Origin: Natrinema pellirubrum DSM 15624
GTDB lineage: Archaea > Halobacteriota > Halobacteria > Halobacteriales > Natrialbaceae
Assembly (NCBI RefSeq): GCF_000230735.2
Contig: NC_019962.1
Coordinates: 1,426,001-1,490,000 of the forward strand
Length of the DNA stretch: 64,000 nucleotides
Reading direction: 5' to 3'
This document shows, one piece after another, positions 26,309 to 34,293 of this stretch. The notes under the pieces are model-generated. The model did not search any database and had not been told where the DNA came from. It saw only the letters and a program-made list of their open reading frames with translations. Every line of letters starts with the position of its first letter. Position 1 is the first letter of the stretch. Both the position numbers and the translations under genes were made by a program.

Positions 26309-26608
26309 TCAGTCCGTCGGTTCGGGGACCTCGTCGGCTCCTGTCGCTCGGAGCCAGCCCTTGATCAGTTCGTTGACGTTGTGGAAGACGACCCCGACCG
26401 ACAGGAGCGTCGTCGTCAGGTAGATGACGAACCCCGGCGGGCCGCCAATCGTCGCGCCGAGGAGACCGCCGGTGATCCCGACGACCGTCAGCTCGAGCCA
26501 CGTCAGCAGGACTCGAGAGCCGAGTCGGGGCGGTCGTCCGGTCGCTGCCCGGTCGCCGATGCGGTCGTCGCGGGCCGCGGACCGATCGTCGTCGCCGTCG
26601 GCTGCCAT
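26309..26608 (-). CDS. Small membrane protein in the cytochrome bd operon
   Basis: 99 residues: an arginine- and aspartate-rich N-terminus (1-33) and two membrane helices (about 35-56 and 62-82), then VFHNVNELIKGWLRATG. Its ATG overlaps the cydB stop by one base (TGATG), so it is translated with cydAB. Small accessory subunits (CydX or CydH) support bd oxidases in bacteria; this protein is larger and not obviously related, so an accessory role is inferred only from position. Confidence 0.7.
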   Translation of the reverse strand: MAADGDDDRSAARDDRIGDRAATGRPPRLGSRVLLTWLELTVVGITGGLLGATIGGPPGFVIYLTTTLLSVGVVFHNVNELIKGWLRATGADEVPEPTD

Positions 26609-27609
26609 CAGTACGACTCACCCGTTTCGATCGGCCCGCTGAAGGCGGTGTAGAGGACCGCGAAGTAGACGAACACGAGCGGCAACAGGACGGCCGCGCC
26701 GACGGACATGAGATTGAGCTGCAGCGTCGAGACGATGGCCGTCTCGACCGTCAGTCCGGCCGCTCGATCGATGGACGGGTACATCAGGCCGGCGACGATG
26801 GCGACCAGCGCGAAGACCAGCCCCGCGGCCGCGCCGAACGCCGCGTAGTAGCGGTCCGCCCGCGTCGCCGCCACGTACACGCCGGCGAACGCGAGCGTCG
26901 CGAGGACGAGCGCCAGCACCGGTGCCGAGAGCAGGGCCGACCGCAACGCCGGTTCGACCGCGTACACGGAGCCAAGCGCCGCGACAACGAGGACGAGGTA
27001 CGCGCCGAGCGCGCGATAGCCGTCCATCTCGAGGTCGTCGCGTAAGTCACCTCGCGTCTTCAGTCGGAGGAAGGCCACGCCGTCGACGACGGTGAGCGCG
27101 ACGACGGCGAGACCGACGATCAGCGCCGGGAGGGTGACGATCGACGTCGCGCCGGTCACCCAGTTCGCGGTGAACATACCCAGAAAGAAGGGGGCGGTGA
27201 GGCTGCCGACGACGAACGCCCGGCCCCACCAGCGCTGCCAGCCGTCGTCGTGGCGCTGTTCGTACATCTCGGGTGCGAGTCCCCGAACGATGAGCGCGCC
27301 CAGAATGGCGAACATCAACAGGTAGTGGCGGCTGAAGAGGTTGGCGTAGACGGACGGAAAGGCCGCGAACAACGCGCCGCCGAAGACGACGAGCCACACC
27401 TCGTTGCCGTCCCAGAACGGCCCGATGGCCGCCAGCAACCGTTCGCGTTCGTCGTCGTCCTCGCGCGTCGCAAACAGCGCGCCGACCCCGAAGTCGAAGC
27501 CGTCCAGAAAGAGGAACATCGCGAGGATGAAAAACACCAGCCCGAACCAGAGGTCGGCCAGCGGGAGACCGAACAACGGCTCGGTCGCGAGCGCGGCCGG
27601 CTCAGTCAT
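26608..27609 (-). CDS. cydB: Cytochrome bd ubiquinol oxidase subunit II
   Basis: 333 residues, eight to nine membrane helices. The N-terminal FVFFILAMFLFLDGFDFGVGALF-like region (LWFGLVFFILAMFLFLDG) and the following GPFWDGNEVWLVVFGGALFAAFP are diagnostic for CydB. With CydA it forms the quinol oxidase that reduces oxygen to water, often at low oxygen or under stress, without pumping protons. It overlaps cydA by eight bases and the small downstream gene by one base. Confidence 0.94.
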   Translation of the reverse strand: MTEPAALATEPLFGLPLADLWFGLVFFILAMFLFLDGFDFGVGALFATREDDDERERLLAAIGPFWDGNEVWLVVFGGALFAAFPSVYANLFSRHYLLMFAILGALIVRGLAPEMYEQRHDDGWQRWWGRAFVVGSLTAPFFLGMFTANWVTGATSIVTLPALIVGLAVVALTVVDGVAFLRLKTRGDLRDDLEMDGYRALGAYLVLVVAALGSVYAVEPALRSALLSAPVLALVLATLAFAGVYVAATRADRYYAAFGAAAGLVFALVAIVAGLMYPSIDRAAGLTVETAIVSTLQLNLMSVGAAVLLPLVFVYFAVLYTAFSGPIETGESY

Positions 27610-29026
27610 CGGCGCTCACCTCCGACGCGGGCCGTTCCGACGCGTCCCGCGTCGCGAGGTCGTCCCCGTCCGGCGGGCCGGCCCGAACGATGCGGACGAC
27701 GACGTAGGTGTAGAGGGTCAGGAGGCCGAGGTAGACGACCGCGAACCCCACAAGCGTCGCCGTCGCCTCGGCGGCGGTCAACCCCGGCGAGACACCGTCT
27801 GTCGTCCGCAAAACGTCCTGTACGACCCACGGCTGGCGGCCGACCTCCGTGACGATCCAGCCCAGTTCGACCGCGACAATGCCGAGCAGCGTCGAGAGCA
27901 TCAGGGCCTTGTGAAGGAGATCGTCCTCGAGGAGTTCGCCGCTCCACCAGCGGTAGCCGCCCCAGACGGCGAGCAGGACGAACCAGAACCCGAGACCGAC
28001 CATCATCCGGAACGACCAGAAGACGATCGCCACGGGCGGCTGTTTTCCCTCGAACTCCTCGAGCCCCTGAATCGTCGCCTGCGGATCGCCGCCGCTCGCG
28101 AGCCACGACGCGCCACCGGGGATACCGATGCCGAAGATCTCCTTGGCACGCGGATCCAGCAGCTGGTTGAGGCTGGTCGGGAACGCGACGATGTACTCGG
28201 GGACGTAGGAGTCGGTCTCCCAGACGGCTTCCATCGCGGCGAACTTCTGGGGCTGGGTTTCCACGATGTGTCGCGCGTACAGGTCGCCGTGTAGCACCTG
28301 CAACGGCGCTGTCACGAGCAACGCGATGAGGCCGAACTTGAGCGTCGTCTCCCAGAACGCGACGTTCTCGACGGGGTACTCCCAGACGTGGTGTCTGAAG
28401 ACGAAATACGCGCCGAGCCCAGCCATAAACAGCGCGACGGACTCGACGGCGGCGTTTTGCATATGGACGAACATCCAGGGGAACCGGGGGTTGGCGTAGG
28501 CCGCGACCGGATCGACCAGTTCGACGATCGTATGTCCGTTCGCCGTCGTCAACTCGTAGCCCCGTGGGGTCTGCATCCAGGAGTTGGCGATCAGGATCCA
28601 GACCGCCGAGAGCCACGTCCCCAGTCCGACCGCGACCGCCGACACCATATACAGCGCGTTCCCGACCCGCTCGCGCCCGAAGACGAAGATGCCGAGAAAC
28701 GTCGCCTCGAGCATGAACGCCATCATTCCCTCGAGCGCGAGCGGACCGCCGAAGAGTTCGCCGGCGGTCGTCGAAAACGCCGCGAAGTTCGTCCCGAACT
28801 CGAACTCGAGGACGATACCGGTCACGGTGCCGACGACGAAGCTGACGGCGAAGATCCGGGTCCAGAACCGTCGCAACTGCTCGTAGATCGGCTCGCCGGT
28901 GCGGATGTCCTTCCACGTGAAGTAGACGAGGAAGGGGGCGAGCCCCATGCTCATCACCGGGAAGATGATGTGAACGATCGTGGTGAGCGCGAACTGCAGC
29001 CGACTGCCGAGGACTGGGTCGATCAT
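27602..29026 (-). CDS. cydA: Cytochrome bd ubiquinol oxidase subunit I
   Basis: 474 residues from the ATG at 29026; the frame stays open upstream but that part is arginine-rich and not protein-like. The protein begins MIDPVLGSRLQFALTTIVHIIFP with the haem b595 histidine in the first helix, has EGMMAFMLEATFLGIFVFG, and the quinol-loop end GRQPW in VTEVGRQPWVVQDVL. These are the hallmarks of CydA. It is the first gene of the cydA-cydB-26309 operon. The nearby DsbA-like and nos-type genes suggest an electron-transfer neighbourhood. Confidence 0.95.
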   Translation of the reverse strand: MIDPVLGSRLQFALTTIVHIIFPVMSMGLAPFLVYFTWKDIRTGEPIYEQLRRFWTRIFAVSFVVGTVTGIVLEFEFGTNFAAFSTTAGELFGGPLALEGMMAFMLEATFLGIFVFGRERVGNALYMVSAVAVGLGTWLSAVWILIANSWMQTPRGYELTTANGHTIVELVDPVAAYANPRFPWMFVHMQNAAVESVALFMAGLGAYFVFRHHVWEYPVENVAFWETTLKFGLIALLVTAPLQVLHGDLYARHIVETQPQKFAAMEAVWETDSYVPEYIVAFPTSLNQLLDPRAKEIFGIGIPGGASWLASGGDPQATIQGLEEFEGKQPPVAIVFWSFRMMVGLGFWFVLLAVWGGYRWWSGELLEDDLLHKALMLSTLLGIVAVELGWIVTEVGRQPWVVQDVLRTTDGVSPGLTAAEATATLVGFAVVYLGLLTLYTYVVVRIVRAGPPDGDDLATRDASERPASEVSADD

Positions 29027-29234: not shown

Positions 29235-29960
29235 CTACGCGTCCCTGACCCGTTCGATCGCGTCGTCGAACCGTTCCGGCGGCTGGGCACCGGTGAGCGA
29301 TCCGGCGGCTTCGGACTCCGGATCGAAGACGACGAACGAGGGCGTCCCCGAGATGCCGAACTCGGTCGCTCGTTCCGCATCGGCTTCGACCGCGGCTTCG
29401 AACTCCGACCGTCGGTCCTCGAGACACGACTCGAGGGCGTCCGCGTCGACGCCGTCGACGGAACGGGTGTACTCGAGGAGGTTGTCCGTCGACGCCCACC
29501 CCGAGTTCTTCTCGCCCTGTTCGTCGAACACCGCCGTATGCCAGTCCCAGTACGCGCCGGGATCGTCGTCGCGAACCCGCTCCCAGACGCACTTGCCGGC
29601 GACCGCGGCGGTCATCGAGTCCGCACCGAAATAGGGCAGCGAGACGAAGACGATGCGAACGTCGCCCGGTTCGACGTACTCCCGAACGAGATCGGGGAGC
29701 GTCTCCCGTTCGAACTGCTCGCAGAACGGGCACTGGAAGTCGGTCCAGTAGTAGATCTCGAGCGGTGCTGCCCGTGAGCCCATGATCGGCTTTCCGCCGA
29801 GGTCGACGCCGAACGCTGACGTCTCGTCGCTCGAGTGAAACGACGGGGAGAGATGCTGTGCGGTGTCGTCGGATCGCGTGAGATAGTAGGCGCCACCGGC
29901 GCCGAGTGTCACGACGGAACCGGCGAGGAACGCGCGACGGGATGGCTGATCGATCGACAT
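29235..29960 (-). CDS. Tat-exported DsbA/DsbG-like thiol-disulfide oxidoreductase
   Basis: 241 residues from the ATG at 29960. A twin-arginine signal (SRRAFLAGS, residues 7-15) leads into a thioredoxin-fold domain with the CPFC active site (C77 and C80) in YYWTDFQCPFCEQFE, a helical insert and a cis-proline ISGTPSFVVFDP. Two further cysteines lie in GKCVWERV and ESCLED. It should act outside the cytoplasm on protein disulfides, either as oxidase or reductase. It is divergent from a two-gene membrane operon across a 25-bp palindrome at 30005-30029. Confidence 0.87.
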   Translation of the reverse strand: MSIDQPSRRAFLAGSVVTLGAGGAYYLTRSDDTAQHLSPSFHSSDETSAFGVDLGGKPIMGSRAAPLEIYYWTDFQCPFCEQFERETLPDLVREYVEPGDVRIVFVSLPYFGADSMTAAVAGKCVWERVRDDDPGAYWDWHTAVFDEQGEKNSGWASTDNLLEYTRSVDGVDADALESCLEDRRSEFEAAVEADAERATEFGISGTPSFVVFDPESEAAGSLTGAQPPERFDDAIERVRDA

Positions 29961-30004
29961 TGAATTCTCGTGACCGTTTCCGATCCGGGACGGTAACGGA
30001 ATCG

Positions 30005-30029
30005 CCGATTTGCTGGCCCAGCAAATCGG
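30005..30029. promoter_or_regulatory. 25-bp perfect palindrome between divergent DsbA-like and membrane-protein genes
   Basis: Left arm CCGATTTGCTGG, one central C, right arm CCAGCAAATCGG: twelve perfectly matched bases on each side. It lies 45 bases from the DsbA-like start and 40 bases from the start at 30069, so it could serve both promoters. A 17-of-21 match precedes the neighbouring winged-helix gene (31190-31210), which makes that protein the likely binder. Confidence 0.7.
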
Positions 30030-30068
30030 AGTTGGTGATTTCAGGTCGTCCCCCGTCGATTCGATCGG

Positions 30069-30617
30069 ATGAATACACGCGCCACGGGTCGAGAGTATCT
30101 GACGAACCTCATTGCAGCGGTCTCGTATCCGTTCGAGACGTGGCGAAGGACGATCGGCGCCGTTGCCGTCACGGGTGCGACCTACGTCCTCCTGATTCTG
30201 AGTACGATGCCGGCGTTCTCGCTTCAGATGCTCGGCGACGGCCTCCACTGGTTCGAGTACGTCGTCGTCTCACTCACGGAGACGGTGTACCGAACCGACG
30301 GCTGGACCGGGCTCGGAATCATCGTCCTGTATGCACTCCTGTCGGGGATCGCTGTCGTCAACGCCGTCACACAGCTGCGACTCGTCGGCGTCTCGAGTCT
30401 CGCCGACCTCTCCGGGATCGTCCCCGGACTCCTTGCCTCTGGCTGTGCGAGCTGTGGTGCCGGTCTCCTCGGCTTTCTCGGGTTCGCGGGGGGCCTCGCG
30501 GCGCTCCCGTACGACGGCGCGCTGGTTCGCGTCGGCGGGCTCGTGCTGTTGCTGTTCTTCCTCGGACGGGCGGGCCATCCCGAACGGTGTACCATCGCGA
30601 CGGAGGGGGCGAAATGA
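30069..30617 (+). CDS. Membrane protein with an intramembrane CxxC pair
   Basis: 182 residues, four to five membrane helices. The key feature is GCASCGAG with C126 and C129 at the edge of a helix (residues about 115-140), plus one cysteine near the C-terminus (PERCT). I recognise no named family. The start codon follows a weak TATA-like GATTTCA by about 30 bases. It overlaps the next gene by four bases, so the two are coupled. A redox or metal role is inferred from the cysteine pair and the DsbA-like neighbour. Confidence 0.75.
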   Translation: MNTRATGREYLTNLIAAVSYPFETWRRTIGAVAVTGATYVLLILSTMPAFSLQMLGDGLHWFEYVVVSLTETVYRTDGWTGLGIIVLYALLSGIAVVNAVTQLRLVGVSSLADLSGIVPGLLASGCASCGAGLLGFLGFAGGLAALPYDGALVRVGGLVLLLFFLGRAGHPERCTIATEGAK

Positions 30618-31090
30618 CGGGACGGGGATTCCTCCGACCGATCCGCTCGGATCGTCGGGCGATGGGGTACGGAGCGGCCGCTGGAATCGGCGTGTTCCTG
30701 TTGTTCGGTCTCGTCACCGGCTTGCTCCCGAACCCGCTCTACGTTCGGATGGTCCCGCGGACGCCGATCGACTACCTGTTCCTGACGTCGACCGCACTGC
30801 TCGCCGGCGTGTACACCGCACAGCGGCTGGCGACCGAGCGAGTCGAACCCGGGCTCGAGGACGGCGACACGAGCAGCGAAGATCGCCTGGCGCTTGGCGG
30901 TCTCGTCGGCGGGTTTCTGGCAGTCAGCTGTCCGATCTGTAACGTCGTTTTGCTCGCGTTGTTCAGTTCCTCGGCGGTCATGACGTACGTCGATCCGTTA
31001 CGACCGGTTTTCGGAGCCCTCTCAGTGGTCCTGCTGGTCGGGCTGATCTACGTCCGCCACAGCCGGGCGTGTCCGACCTGTGCCGTCTGA
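30614..31090 (+). CDS. Membrane protein with two CxxC pairs
   Basis: 158 residues from the ATG at 30614, which overlaps the previous stop (ATGA). Four membrane helices. One cysteine pair, SCPICN (C106 and C109), lies at the start of the third helix; a second, CPTC (C153 and C156), is at the very C-terminus. The two-pair layout resembles DsbB or VKOR in that electrons could pass between pairs in a membrane protein, but there is no sequence match I can name. It is likely to work with the protein encoded just upstream. Confidence 0.75.
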   Translation: MTGRGFLRPIRSDRRAMGYGAAAGIGVFLLFGLVTGLLPNPLYVRMVPRTPIDYLFLTSTALLAGVYTAQRLATERVEPGLEDGDTSSEDRLALGGLVGGFLAVSCPICNVVLLALFSSSAVMTYVDPLRPVFGALSVVLLVGLIYVRHSRACPTCAV

Positions 31091-31189: not shown

Positions 31190-31210
31190 GATTTGCCGGG
31201 TCAGCGAATC
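31190..31210 (+). promoter_or_regulatory. Second copy of the palindromic operator, upstream of the winged-helix gene
   Basis: GATTTGC-CGGGTCA-GCGAATC, matching 17 of 21 bases of the centre of the palindrome at 30005-30029. It lies just upstream of a CTATTTG TATA-like element (31216-31222) and about 40 bases before the GTG at 31247, which suggests autoregulation. Confidence 0.55.
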
Positions 31211-31246
31211 GTGGCCTATTTGCCGCTGAACGAGAGGATCTCTCGT

Positions 31247-31609
31247 GTGCAACCCGGTGGTTCCTCGGAGTCGACGGCGATCTTCCAACTCCTCGCGGAC
31301 GAGTACGCACGGAAGATACTCCTCGCCGCCGATCGGGACGGACCGAAGACAGCGAAGACGCTCAGCGAGGAGTGTGACGCCTCGCTGACGACGGTCTATC
31401 GCCGTGTGTCGACGCTGCAAGAATACGACCTCATCGAGGAATGCAGAACCGTCGACGCGGACGGCTCTCACCGAAGCGAGTTCGAAACCACACTCGAGGA
31501 ACTCCACGTCGACGTCACCGACGGACAACTCTCGCTGACCATGGAGACACGCGACGAACTCGCCGACAACTTCACCGACCTCTGGCGCGGGATCCGGGGT
31601 GACGAGTAA
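31247..31609 (+). CDS. Winged-helix transcription regulator (ArsR-like)
   Basis: 120 residues from the GTG at 31247, placed one TATA distance after CTATTTG; a start at 31193 would lie inside the operator. The HTH runs through about residues 10-75 (LLADEYARKILLAADRDGPKTAKTLSEEC then SLTTVYRRVSTLQEYDLIEE), with one cysteine in SEEC and one in EECR, followed by a beta-wing and a short helix for dimerisation. DNA-binding regulators of this haloarchaeal type often sit beside their targets. Stop and next start overlap as TAATG. Confidence 0.8.
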   Translation: MQPGGSSESTAIFQLLADEYARKILLAADRDGPKTAKTLSEECDASLTTVYRRVSTLQEYDLIEECRTVDADGSHRSEFETTLEELHVDVTDGQLSLTMETRDELADNFTDLWRGIRGDE

Positions 31610-31872
31610 TGGACGCGTCGTTCCTCCTCGCCAAACTGATTACGCTCGTTTTGAGTCTCGTCGTCGCGTATCTGGCGTTTCACGGCTATCGGCGGAGCGG
31701 ACAGACGCCGATGCTGTACGTCTCCGGTGGATTCGTCTTCATCGGTGCCGGGGCGATCTGTGAGGGGCTGATCTATCACGTGTTCGGGACGACGATCGCG
31801 TCCGCCGCCCTCGTGCAGGCAGTCATCGTCTCGAGCGGGATGGGACTCGTTTTGCTCTCGCTGACGAAGTGA
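31609..31872 (+). CDS. Small three-helix membrane protein coupled to the regulator (DUF7521-like)
   Basis: 87 residues in three membrane helices: FLLAKLITLVLSLVVAYLAF, MLYVSGGFVFIGAGAICEGLIYHVF and AALVQAVIVSSGMGLVLLSL. It overlaps the regulator gene by one base. Haloarchaea commonly pair this kind of small membrane protein with a winged-helix regulator; I think it belongs to the DUF7521 group, but the function is unknown. It may sense something at the membrane for its partner, which is inference. Confidence 0.72.
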   Translation: MDASFLLAKLITLVLSLVVAYLAFHGYRRSGQTPMLYVSGGFVFIGAGAICEGLIYHVFGTTIASAALVQAVIVSSGMGLVLLSLTK

Positions 31873-31885
31873 CGTTGCCCCGAAT

Positions 31886-32809
31886 CTAGAAGAACAGCGC
31901 CGGCACGGTGTTCCGGAAGATGTTGAGCGAGATGATAAACAGGAGTCCGACGACGAACCAGTCGAACGTTCGCTCGTCGAACTCGAAGCGCCGGAGGTAC
32001 GTACCCAGCAACAACCCGACGATGGTAACCACTGCGATCATCGAACCGAGCCAGAGCCGGTAGGTCGTCAGAAGATCGGTGAACAGCGCCATCTGGACGA
32101 GACGGACCGTAAAGATCGTCCCGAGTACCATCGACAGGCCGCCGATGTATCGCTCGGTGTCGCGTTCGAAGGTGTGGAAGTACGCCGGGAGGAGCGGCCC
32201 GAGGTTCGCGAACGCGAGCAGGAAGCCCTGAAAGAACCCGGCGGCGCCGAGGGCGAACGGGTGGTGGGCTTCCTCGACCGTGACGAAGTTCTGTACGAAC
32301 TGAAAGGCCACGTAACCGAAGAGGACGAGACCGATGACGAACGCGACGATCGGGCCGACGCTGAACGTCGCGAGCGCCGCAACGCCGACGATGGTCCCCG
32401 CGATCGCGAGTACCAGCAGCGTCCACTCCTCACGAACGAACGCCCGTCCCGTCCCGGTTTCGGCGATCTGGAACATGTTGAGCATCCACGGCGGGATCGC
32501 CAGGACGACGACAGCGACGGTCGGATCGATCACCGACGCGACGATCGGCGTCATGATGAGCGAGTAGCCGAACCCGGTCATGCCCTTGACGGCGCCGGCG
32601 ACGATCGCGATCAGGACGACCCCGGCGAGCAACTCGCCAGAGAGGTCGGACTGGACACCGTTCCCGACGTTCTCGAATCCGGGGAAGAAGACGACCGCGG
32701 CGACGAGAACGGCCACCGTCGCGCCGACCATCGTCACTTCCCGGTATCGGAACGCGAGGAGGTTGGTGAGAAACTGTTCGACGTCGACTCTGGATTCGGA
32801 GGTACTCAT
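31886..32809 (-). CDS. TauE/SafE-family anion exporter
   Basis: 307 residues from the ATG at 32809. Eight predicted membrane helices in two halves, each with the TSUP pattern: GMTGFGYSLIMTPIVASVIDP in the first half and FALGAAGFFQGFLLAFANLGPLLPAYF in the second. TauE/SafE proteins carry sulfite, sulfoacetate or related anions across the membrane. A second member is encoded at 34396. It is monocistronic and converges on the small membrane protein gene. No TATTGTRC motif lies in front of it. Confidence 0.85.
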   Translation of the reverse strand: MSTSESRVDVEQFLTNLLAFRYREVTMVGATVAVLVAAVVFFPGFENVGNGVQSDLSGELLAGVVLIAIVAGAVKGMTGFGYSLIMTPIVASVIDPTVAVVVLAIPPWMLNMFQIAETGTGRAFVREEWTLLVLAIAGTIVGVAALATFSVGPIVAFVIGLVLFGYVAFQFVQNFVTVEEAHHPFALGAAGFFQGFLLAFANLGPLLPAYFHTFERDTERYIGGLSMVLGTIFTVRLVQMALFTDLLTTYRLWLGSMIAVVTIVGLLLGTYLRRFEFDERTFDWFVVGLLFIISLNIFRNTVPALFF

Positions 32810-33138: not shown

Positions 33139-33510
33139 ATGACCGACTCAACGCCACCGGAGTCAACCGGCGACGGCCCCACGACCCGAAGCCCCGTCGA
33201 GTTGACCGACGGGACCGACTACGACGACCTGCTCGCGACACACGATCTCGTCCTGCTCGAGTTCGTTACGTCCGGCTGTGGTATCTGCGCGTCCATGGAG
33301 CCGGTACTCGGTGCGGTCGCACGCAGCGCACCGGGAGTCGTCGCGACGGTCAACGCCGGTCTCGTTCCGGATCTCACCGCCGAATTCGACGTTCGGAGCG
33401 TCCCGACGCTCGTCGTCCTGCGTGACGGCGAGGCGGTCGCTCGCTTCGACGACGGCTTCCAGCAGGCCGACACGCTCGTCGACGCGCTCGAGGCCCACGC
33501 AGCACAGTAG
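33139..33510 (+). CDS. Thioredoxin-family protein with CGIC active site
   Basis: 123 residues from the ATG at 33139, the start that fits the promoter. Thioredoxin fold with CGIC (C47 and C50) in FVTSGCGICASMEPVL and the cis-proline SVPTLVVLRDGE. The N-terminal 25 residues are an acidic extension. The active site differs from the standard WCGPC of TrxA, so redox potential and partners should differ; it may act in sulfane-sulfur transfer rather than general reduction, which is inference. Confidence 0.87.
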   Translation: MTDSTPPESTGDGPTTRSPVELTDGTDYDDLLATHDLVLLEFVTSGCGICASMEPVLGAVARSAPGVVATVNAGLVPDLTAEFDVRSVPTLVVLRDGEAVARFDDGFQQADTLVDALEAHAAQ

Positions 33511-33885: not shown

Positions 33886-34293
33886 TTAGCTCTGGGCAGG
33901 AATCTCGGTATCGGCCTCCGCATGTTCGTACTTGTCCTCGAACTCCTGGATGAGTTGCCCCATCTTCGCGTACCAGTCGTTTAGCTTTCGCTGCATGTCG
34001 TTTGCGATCTGGGTCGGGTCCGTCGGGTAGTAGACGTGATAGTACCCGCCCTGATCGTAGTTGATCTGCTCCTTTTGGATGAACCCGCTCTTGAGCAAGC
34101 GCTGGATCGATCGGTACGCGGTCGAACGCTCGCGGTCGACCCGATCGGCGACCTCGTCGATCGTCAGCGCTTGCTCGCTCTCGACGAGGACGCGAAAGCA
34201 GTCCTTGTCGAGTTGCTTGAGTCCGTGGATACATTCCAGTAACCCCTCACACTCCATGTCCTGCTGTAGTTGCTCTGCCATCGAGTTTGCCAT
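33886..34293 (-). CDS. HTH transcription regulator with three N-terminal cysteines
   Basis: 135 residues from the ATG at 34293. Cysteines at positions 15, 21 and 32 (MECEGLLEC and KDCF) precede a winged HTH at about 30-85 (LTIDEVADRVDRERSTAYRSIQRLLKSGFIQ), then YYHVYYPTDP and a C-terminal helix for dimer formation. The cysteines could sense oxidants, persulfides or metals. It lies among sulfur and thiol genes and is the best candidate to bind the TATTGTRC motif; this is inference. It is followed by a good TATA element upstream (minus-strand CCTTATAGCG). Confidence 0.83.
   Translation of the reverse strand: MANSMAEQLQQDMECEGLLECIHGLKQLDKDCFRVLVESEQALTIDEVADRVDRERSTAYRSIQRLLKSGFIQKEQINYDQGGYYHVYYPTDPTQIANDMQRKLNDWYAKMGQLIQEFEDKYEHAEADTEIPAQS

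Follow-up and report, generated by a model that had tools for sequence, protein, structure and literature searches.

Several haloarchaeal regulators have been described whose sites lie close to the BRE and TATA box. OxsR of Haloferax volcanii is a thiol-based, single-domain winged-helix regulator, and its sites upstream of the BRE/TATA activate transcription (PMC9426492). In the gas-vesicle genes of Halobacterium salinarum, the GvpE sites are two-half elements of about 20 nt that adjoin the BRE between divergent promoters (PMC4390858). Similarly placed sites can also serve repression in haloarchaea (PMC6085418), and the CsmR sites likewise adjoin the TATA box, the direct sign of CsmR being unsettled (PMC13286277). 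Here we analyzed a palindrome in Natrinema pellirubrum DSM 15624, within a stretch of 64,000 nucleotides (the window, from whose first letter all positions are counted unless a contig is named).

A first-pass annotation of this DNA had described a 25-bp perfect palindrome with twelve-base arms between two divergent genes, along with a 17-of-21 copy upstream of a winged-helix gene, and had read them as a dedicated, autoregulated operator. The palindrome, the winged-helix gene and the divergent genes were found as described (Table 1). The palindrome consists of 12-bp arms around one central base (CCGATTTGCTGG-C-CCAGCAAATCGG), and a 25-bp palindrome was matched once in the window versus not at all in 100 shuffles. 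The second copy, GATTTGCCGGGTCAGCGAATC, matches 17 of 21 positions of the first and is unremarkable when judged solely as a dyad. It is nevertheless a genuine copy, since a search of the whole 4.35-Mb genome allowing up to three mismatches returned these two places only; the reversed control palindrome gave no match in the same search. The scattering that the annotation had named as a possible refutation was therefore not seen.

Table 1. Positions of the palindromes, TATA-like elements and genes of the module within the window.
Feature	Position	Strand	Remarks
DsbA-like thioredoxin-fold protein, CPFC motif	29235..29960	-	Predicted target; Pfam Thioredoxin_4 9.7e-22; site upstream in relatives
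TATA-like element TTACCG of DsbA-like gene	29991..29996	-	Presumed promoter element; 10 bp from operator 1; position kept in relatives
Operator 1 (candidate)	30005..30029	no strand	Perfect 25-bp palindrome; conserved 21-bp core 30007-30027; common to two divergent promoters; kept in relatives
TATA-like element gaTTTcag of membrane protein A gene	30037..30044	+	9-11 bp from operator 1; ~29 bp before ATG
Small membrane protein A	30069..30617	+	Predicted target; invariant CASC and C174, H170 nearly invariant
Small membrane protein B	30614..31090	+	Two invariant CxxC motifs; distant MerT resemblance; operon with A
Operator 2 (candidate)	31190..31210	no strand	21-bp variant copy, 36 bp before regulator gene start
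TATA-like element GCCTATTTG of regulator gene	31217..31221	+	6 bp from operator 2; ~28 bp before GTG; conserved GTGGCCTATTTG
Winged-helix regulator, 120 aa	31247..31609	+	Presumed operator binder; HTH_20; GTG start
DUF7521 membrane protein	31609..31872	+	Presumed regulator partner; overlaps regulator stop codon; Pfam DUF7521 8.2e-17
TauE/SafE-family permease	31886..32809	-	Frequent module neighbor, without own site
Thioredoxin-like protein (CGIC)	33139..33510	+	Frequent module neighbor, without own site
Sta1/Lrs14-like protein	33886-34293

The winged-helix regulator passed only the general Pfam models HTH_20 and HTH_24. It did not reach the ArsR/SmtB metalloregulator model (NCBIfam NF033788; 19.5 bits, cut-off 55) or the TrmB domain (PF01978; 16.6 bits versus 25.6). 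Its fold was modeled as a winged helix (pLDDT 81), and the top match among solved structures was the ArsR-like Phr of Pyrococcus. The closest named relatives by regulator were Natrinema thermotolerans and N. mahii, and a clean score gap separated orthologues (at least 145 bits) from paralogues (at most 119 bits).

The presence of the site followed that of the regulator orthologue among the 125 genomes of the family. The site was found in 55 of the 60 genomes with an orthologue versus 4 of the 65 without one (Fisher P 1.5e-24, a value that ignores shared ancestry), and five orthologue-bearing genomes had no recognizable site. Among the genomes with a site and no orthologue, one (G069) has the second type of module discussed below, one (G027) has its site at a contig end, and in a third (G048) the match is a variant palindrome. 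The annotation had also proposed a search next to orthologues of the winged-helix gene. In 26 of the 30 closest named relatives the site, with 0-3 mismatches, lay just before the regulator gene, and in nearly all of them the distance was exactly 36 bp; the palindrome was absent upstream of the regulator in eleven more divergent named relatives (50-62% identity). Upstream of some of these divergent relatives we noted, by eye, a dyad resembling GATTTGGT-CAC-ACCAAACG. In loci L115-L121 a possible diverged operator, CGTTTGGTGTGACCAAATCG, replaces the palindrome upstream of the regulator homologue, and these loci could serve the study of specificity change.

Matches to the palindrome were carried by 59 of the 125 family genomes, mostly 1-5 each and usually clustered within ~10 kb, and the reversed control gave one match or none in the same genomes. 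At the level of the class, 74 of 391 genomes matched a degenerate form (up to two mismatches) versus a single genome with a control match. A set of 131 sites that differed in their flanks, some of them from close relatives, gave the consensus GATTTGCTGRNYCAGCAAATC, in which the half-sites are near-invariant and the center is free. The innermost pair of the dyad was mismatched in 86 of these sites while both half-sites were conserved, a pattern that favors a dimeric protein and disfavors an RNA stem.

Gene maps of the relatives revealed five recurring genes with sites before them. From the site to the gene start the distance was 41 bp for membrane protein A in nearly all relatives, about 45-50 bp for the conserved start of the DsbA-like gene, and 57-60 bp for a carbamoyltransferase gene. 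Besides these and the regulator gene, the fifth recurring target was a secreted lipoprotein (family F18) with a faint polysaccharide-deacetylase resemblance, which also has a fixed spacing to its site. The carbamoyltransferase, of the NodU/CmcH type, occurs under the same palindrome in many relatives (L035, L036, L044, L051, L066 and others). Where further genes had entered between the DsbA-like gene and membrane protein A (L033, L034, L035, L044 and L066), every promoter retained or gained its own palindrome; the newly inserted genes with a site include the carbamoyltransferase and the lipoprotein.

In all five target classes a TATA-like element begins 6-12 bp downstream of the palindrome end, so that the site lies immediately upstream of the BRE/TATA, as an upstream activating site would. 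In the genes of membrane protein A and the regulator, about 28-29 bp separate the TATA-like element from the start codon. Based on this spacing and the general layout of haloarchaeal promoters, the transcripts of these two genes are predicted to be leaderless. In one relative (L057) the regulator's upstream GTG frame is broken by a stop codon, which supports the downstream start.

For membrane protein A no Pfam family was found, a search of solved structures gave no match, and the AlphaFold model (pLDDT 46) was too poor for use. The neighbors of the module include genes whose products resemble sulfur-related proteins in sequence (TauE, rhodanese-MBL and a SoxB-like 5'-nucleotidase-family protein). 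In addition, a cytochrome bd oxidase-like gene pair (26608-29026, minus strand), named from its sequence, adjoins the module here and in L060, and does not in most relatives.

Together, the sequence of the palindrome, its uniqueness, its fixed spacing, its presence together with the regulator and its reappearance before target genes that were newly inserted form the direct basis for our interpretation that it is very probably the dedicated operator of the 120-aa winged-helix protein. The site stands in the regulator's own promoter and in neighboring target promoters, and is rare elsewhere in the genome. The annotation's proposal of a dedicated operator is thus strengthened by rarity and by the tracking of the orthologue, and its suggestion of autoregulation is consistent with the position of the second site. 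A dimer of the regulator would bind the consensus. Operator 1 would serve both divergent promoters, that of the DsbA-like gene to the left and that of membrane genes A and B to the right, and operator 2 would serve the promoter of the regulator and its DUF7521 partner, resulting in autoregulation. The regulon is best read, from its gene content, as controlling an extracytoplasmic thiol, copper or sulfur module. The signal is probably extracytoplasmic thiol, copper or reactive-sulfur stress, perhaps relayed via the DUF7521 membrane protein.

If the palindrome is such an operator, we lean toward upstream activation as its mode. The operators end 6-12 bp upstream of weak TATA-like elements, beside the BRE, which makes the activating mode the more likely one; a dimer beside the contact of TFB (transcription factor B) with the BRE could recruit TBP/TFB, with the palindrome acting as an upstream activating site for leaderless genes. 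The main alternative keeps the same operator and the same protein and differs in sign only, and we regard it as a serious contender that falls somewhat short of an even chance. The dimer beside the BRE/TATA would block TFB/TBP until released by a signal, in the style of the ArsR family. The ArsR/Phr-like fold is in keeping with such a repressor, a winged-helix dimer that occupied 21 bp would extend into the BRE, and haloarchaeal repressor sites that cover or adjoin the BRE have been reported (PMC6085418). The strong TATA boxes of the second module (TTTATATA) are no less compatible with a repressor than with an activator, whereas the TATA-like elements of the first module are weak. In addition, all the sites lie upstream of the TATA-like element and none over the TATA or the start, a placement that the OxsR rule ties to activation (PMC9426492).

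Binding of the palindrome by another regulator, such as the Sta1/Lrs14-like protein encoded nearby, appears improbable. Its gene is present in 22 of the 58 site-bearing loci, but is absent from most of them and no site was seen before it, whereas the winged-helix/DUF7521 pair is in 49 of the 58, with a site in its own promoter. Among the families tested, the next gene family was found in 30 of the 58. Based on the contrast of 22 with 49 loci, we rejected the Sta1/Lrs14-like gene as the general binder. It is scarcely credible that the palindrome acts in RNA, as a terminator or attenuator hairpin, or that it is the repeat of a mobile element. A perfect inverted repeat could fold, but this one is placed upstream of the TATA-like elements of genes of the leaderless type, and among the sites the innermost pair is usually mismatched; on these grounds the hairpin was rejected. 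The two copies in the source genome, both tied to defined promoters, led us to reject a scattered repeat.

The palindrome extends beyond what the annotation had noted, to a regulon of multiple promoters and a module of a second type. In this module, as found in other families, a regulator paralogue of 116 aa and two DUF7521 genes are divergent from the gene for a halocyanin-like copper protein, and the same palindrome lies between regulator and halocyanin-like gene (L067, L072-L074, L076, L078, L080-L082). This module type also occurs within the family (L037, L151), and its neighbors are aconitase, YHS-domain permease, DUF302 and sometimes P-type ATPase genes. The aconitase-family gene beside halocyanin and regulator (L037, L067, L074-L082, L151) is odd in a metal or thiol module; the extra aconitase might replace a damaged iron-sulfur enzyme. 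In the source genome, a further regulator paralogue forms a pair with DUF7521 on contig C2 (C2:54000-66000, L149). A related dyad, GTTCTGAGTCAGAAAAC, precedes its TATA box, and the neighbors of the pair are a heavy-metal-binding domain protein, a His-rich protein that resembles a P-type ATPase, and a YHS-type permease. Judging by the neighbors of the second module and of the C2 pair that resemble metal-related proteins in sequence, the signal may lean to copper or thiol stress; the sulfur-related neighbors keep the choice broader than these two.

Most DUF7521 genes of the source genome directly follow a winged-helix regulator, and four further pairs show dyads at a similar place. At C1:406318 (L141) the dyad is a perfect palindrome of another sequence, CACGACTGCAGCGGCTGCAGTCGTG; it lies 39-42 bp upstream of the start, is closely followed by a TATA-like TTTATG, and is beyond chance. 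The dyads before C1:3662223, C1:1351601 and C2:60406 were individually weak by shuffling. We tentatively speculate that regulator and DUF7521 protein form a split membrane-sensing unit, with a soluble DNA binder and a signal-receiving membrane protein, and that haloarchaea have a family of such pairs with private palindromes beside the TATA. This general pairing is the more interesting point, offered here as a proposal.

Local winged-helix regulators with a dedicated palindromic operator are a familiar kind of system. A search of the literature for the motif, DUF7521 or HVO_A0261 in haloarchaea found no relevant report, and the motif and regulon were not found in the literature searched. The analysis provides a testable operator and regulon for an uncharacterized but common haloarchaeal pair of winged helix and DUF7521 protein. 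One switch would link unknown cysteine-bearing membrane proteins with DsbA-like, SCO1, TauE and multicopper-oxidase genes. That halocyanin genes on other contigs have the same palindrome next to them suggests a metal or thiol stress circuit that is portable.

Of the known systems, OxsR shares with this locus a small winged-helix protein, a motif upstream of the BRE/TATA and thiol-relay genes as targets (PMC9426492). However, OxsR is a TrmB-family protein whose motif is CG-rich and whose C24 lies at the dimer interface, whereas the regulator here is of the HTH_20 type with an AT-rich-armed palindrome, and its invariant C43 sits in the helix-turn-helix. Phr of Pyrococcus furiosus resembles the regulator in predicted fold, as the best solved match by structure, but is only 20% identical to it, and the regulator falls outside the ArsR/SmtB model. 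The GvpE sites are alike in being two-half elements that adjoin the BRE between divergent haloarchaeal promoters. In contrast to the winged helix here, GvpE resembles a leucine-zipper protein, and it has two overlapping sites, unrelated in sequence to the palindrome, where this locus has one symmetrical site common to both promoters.
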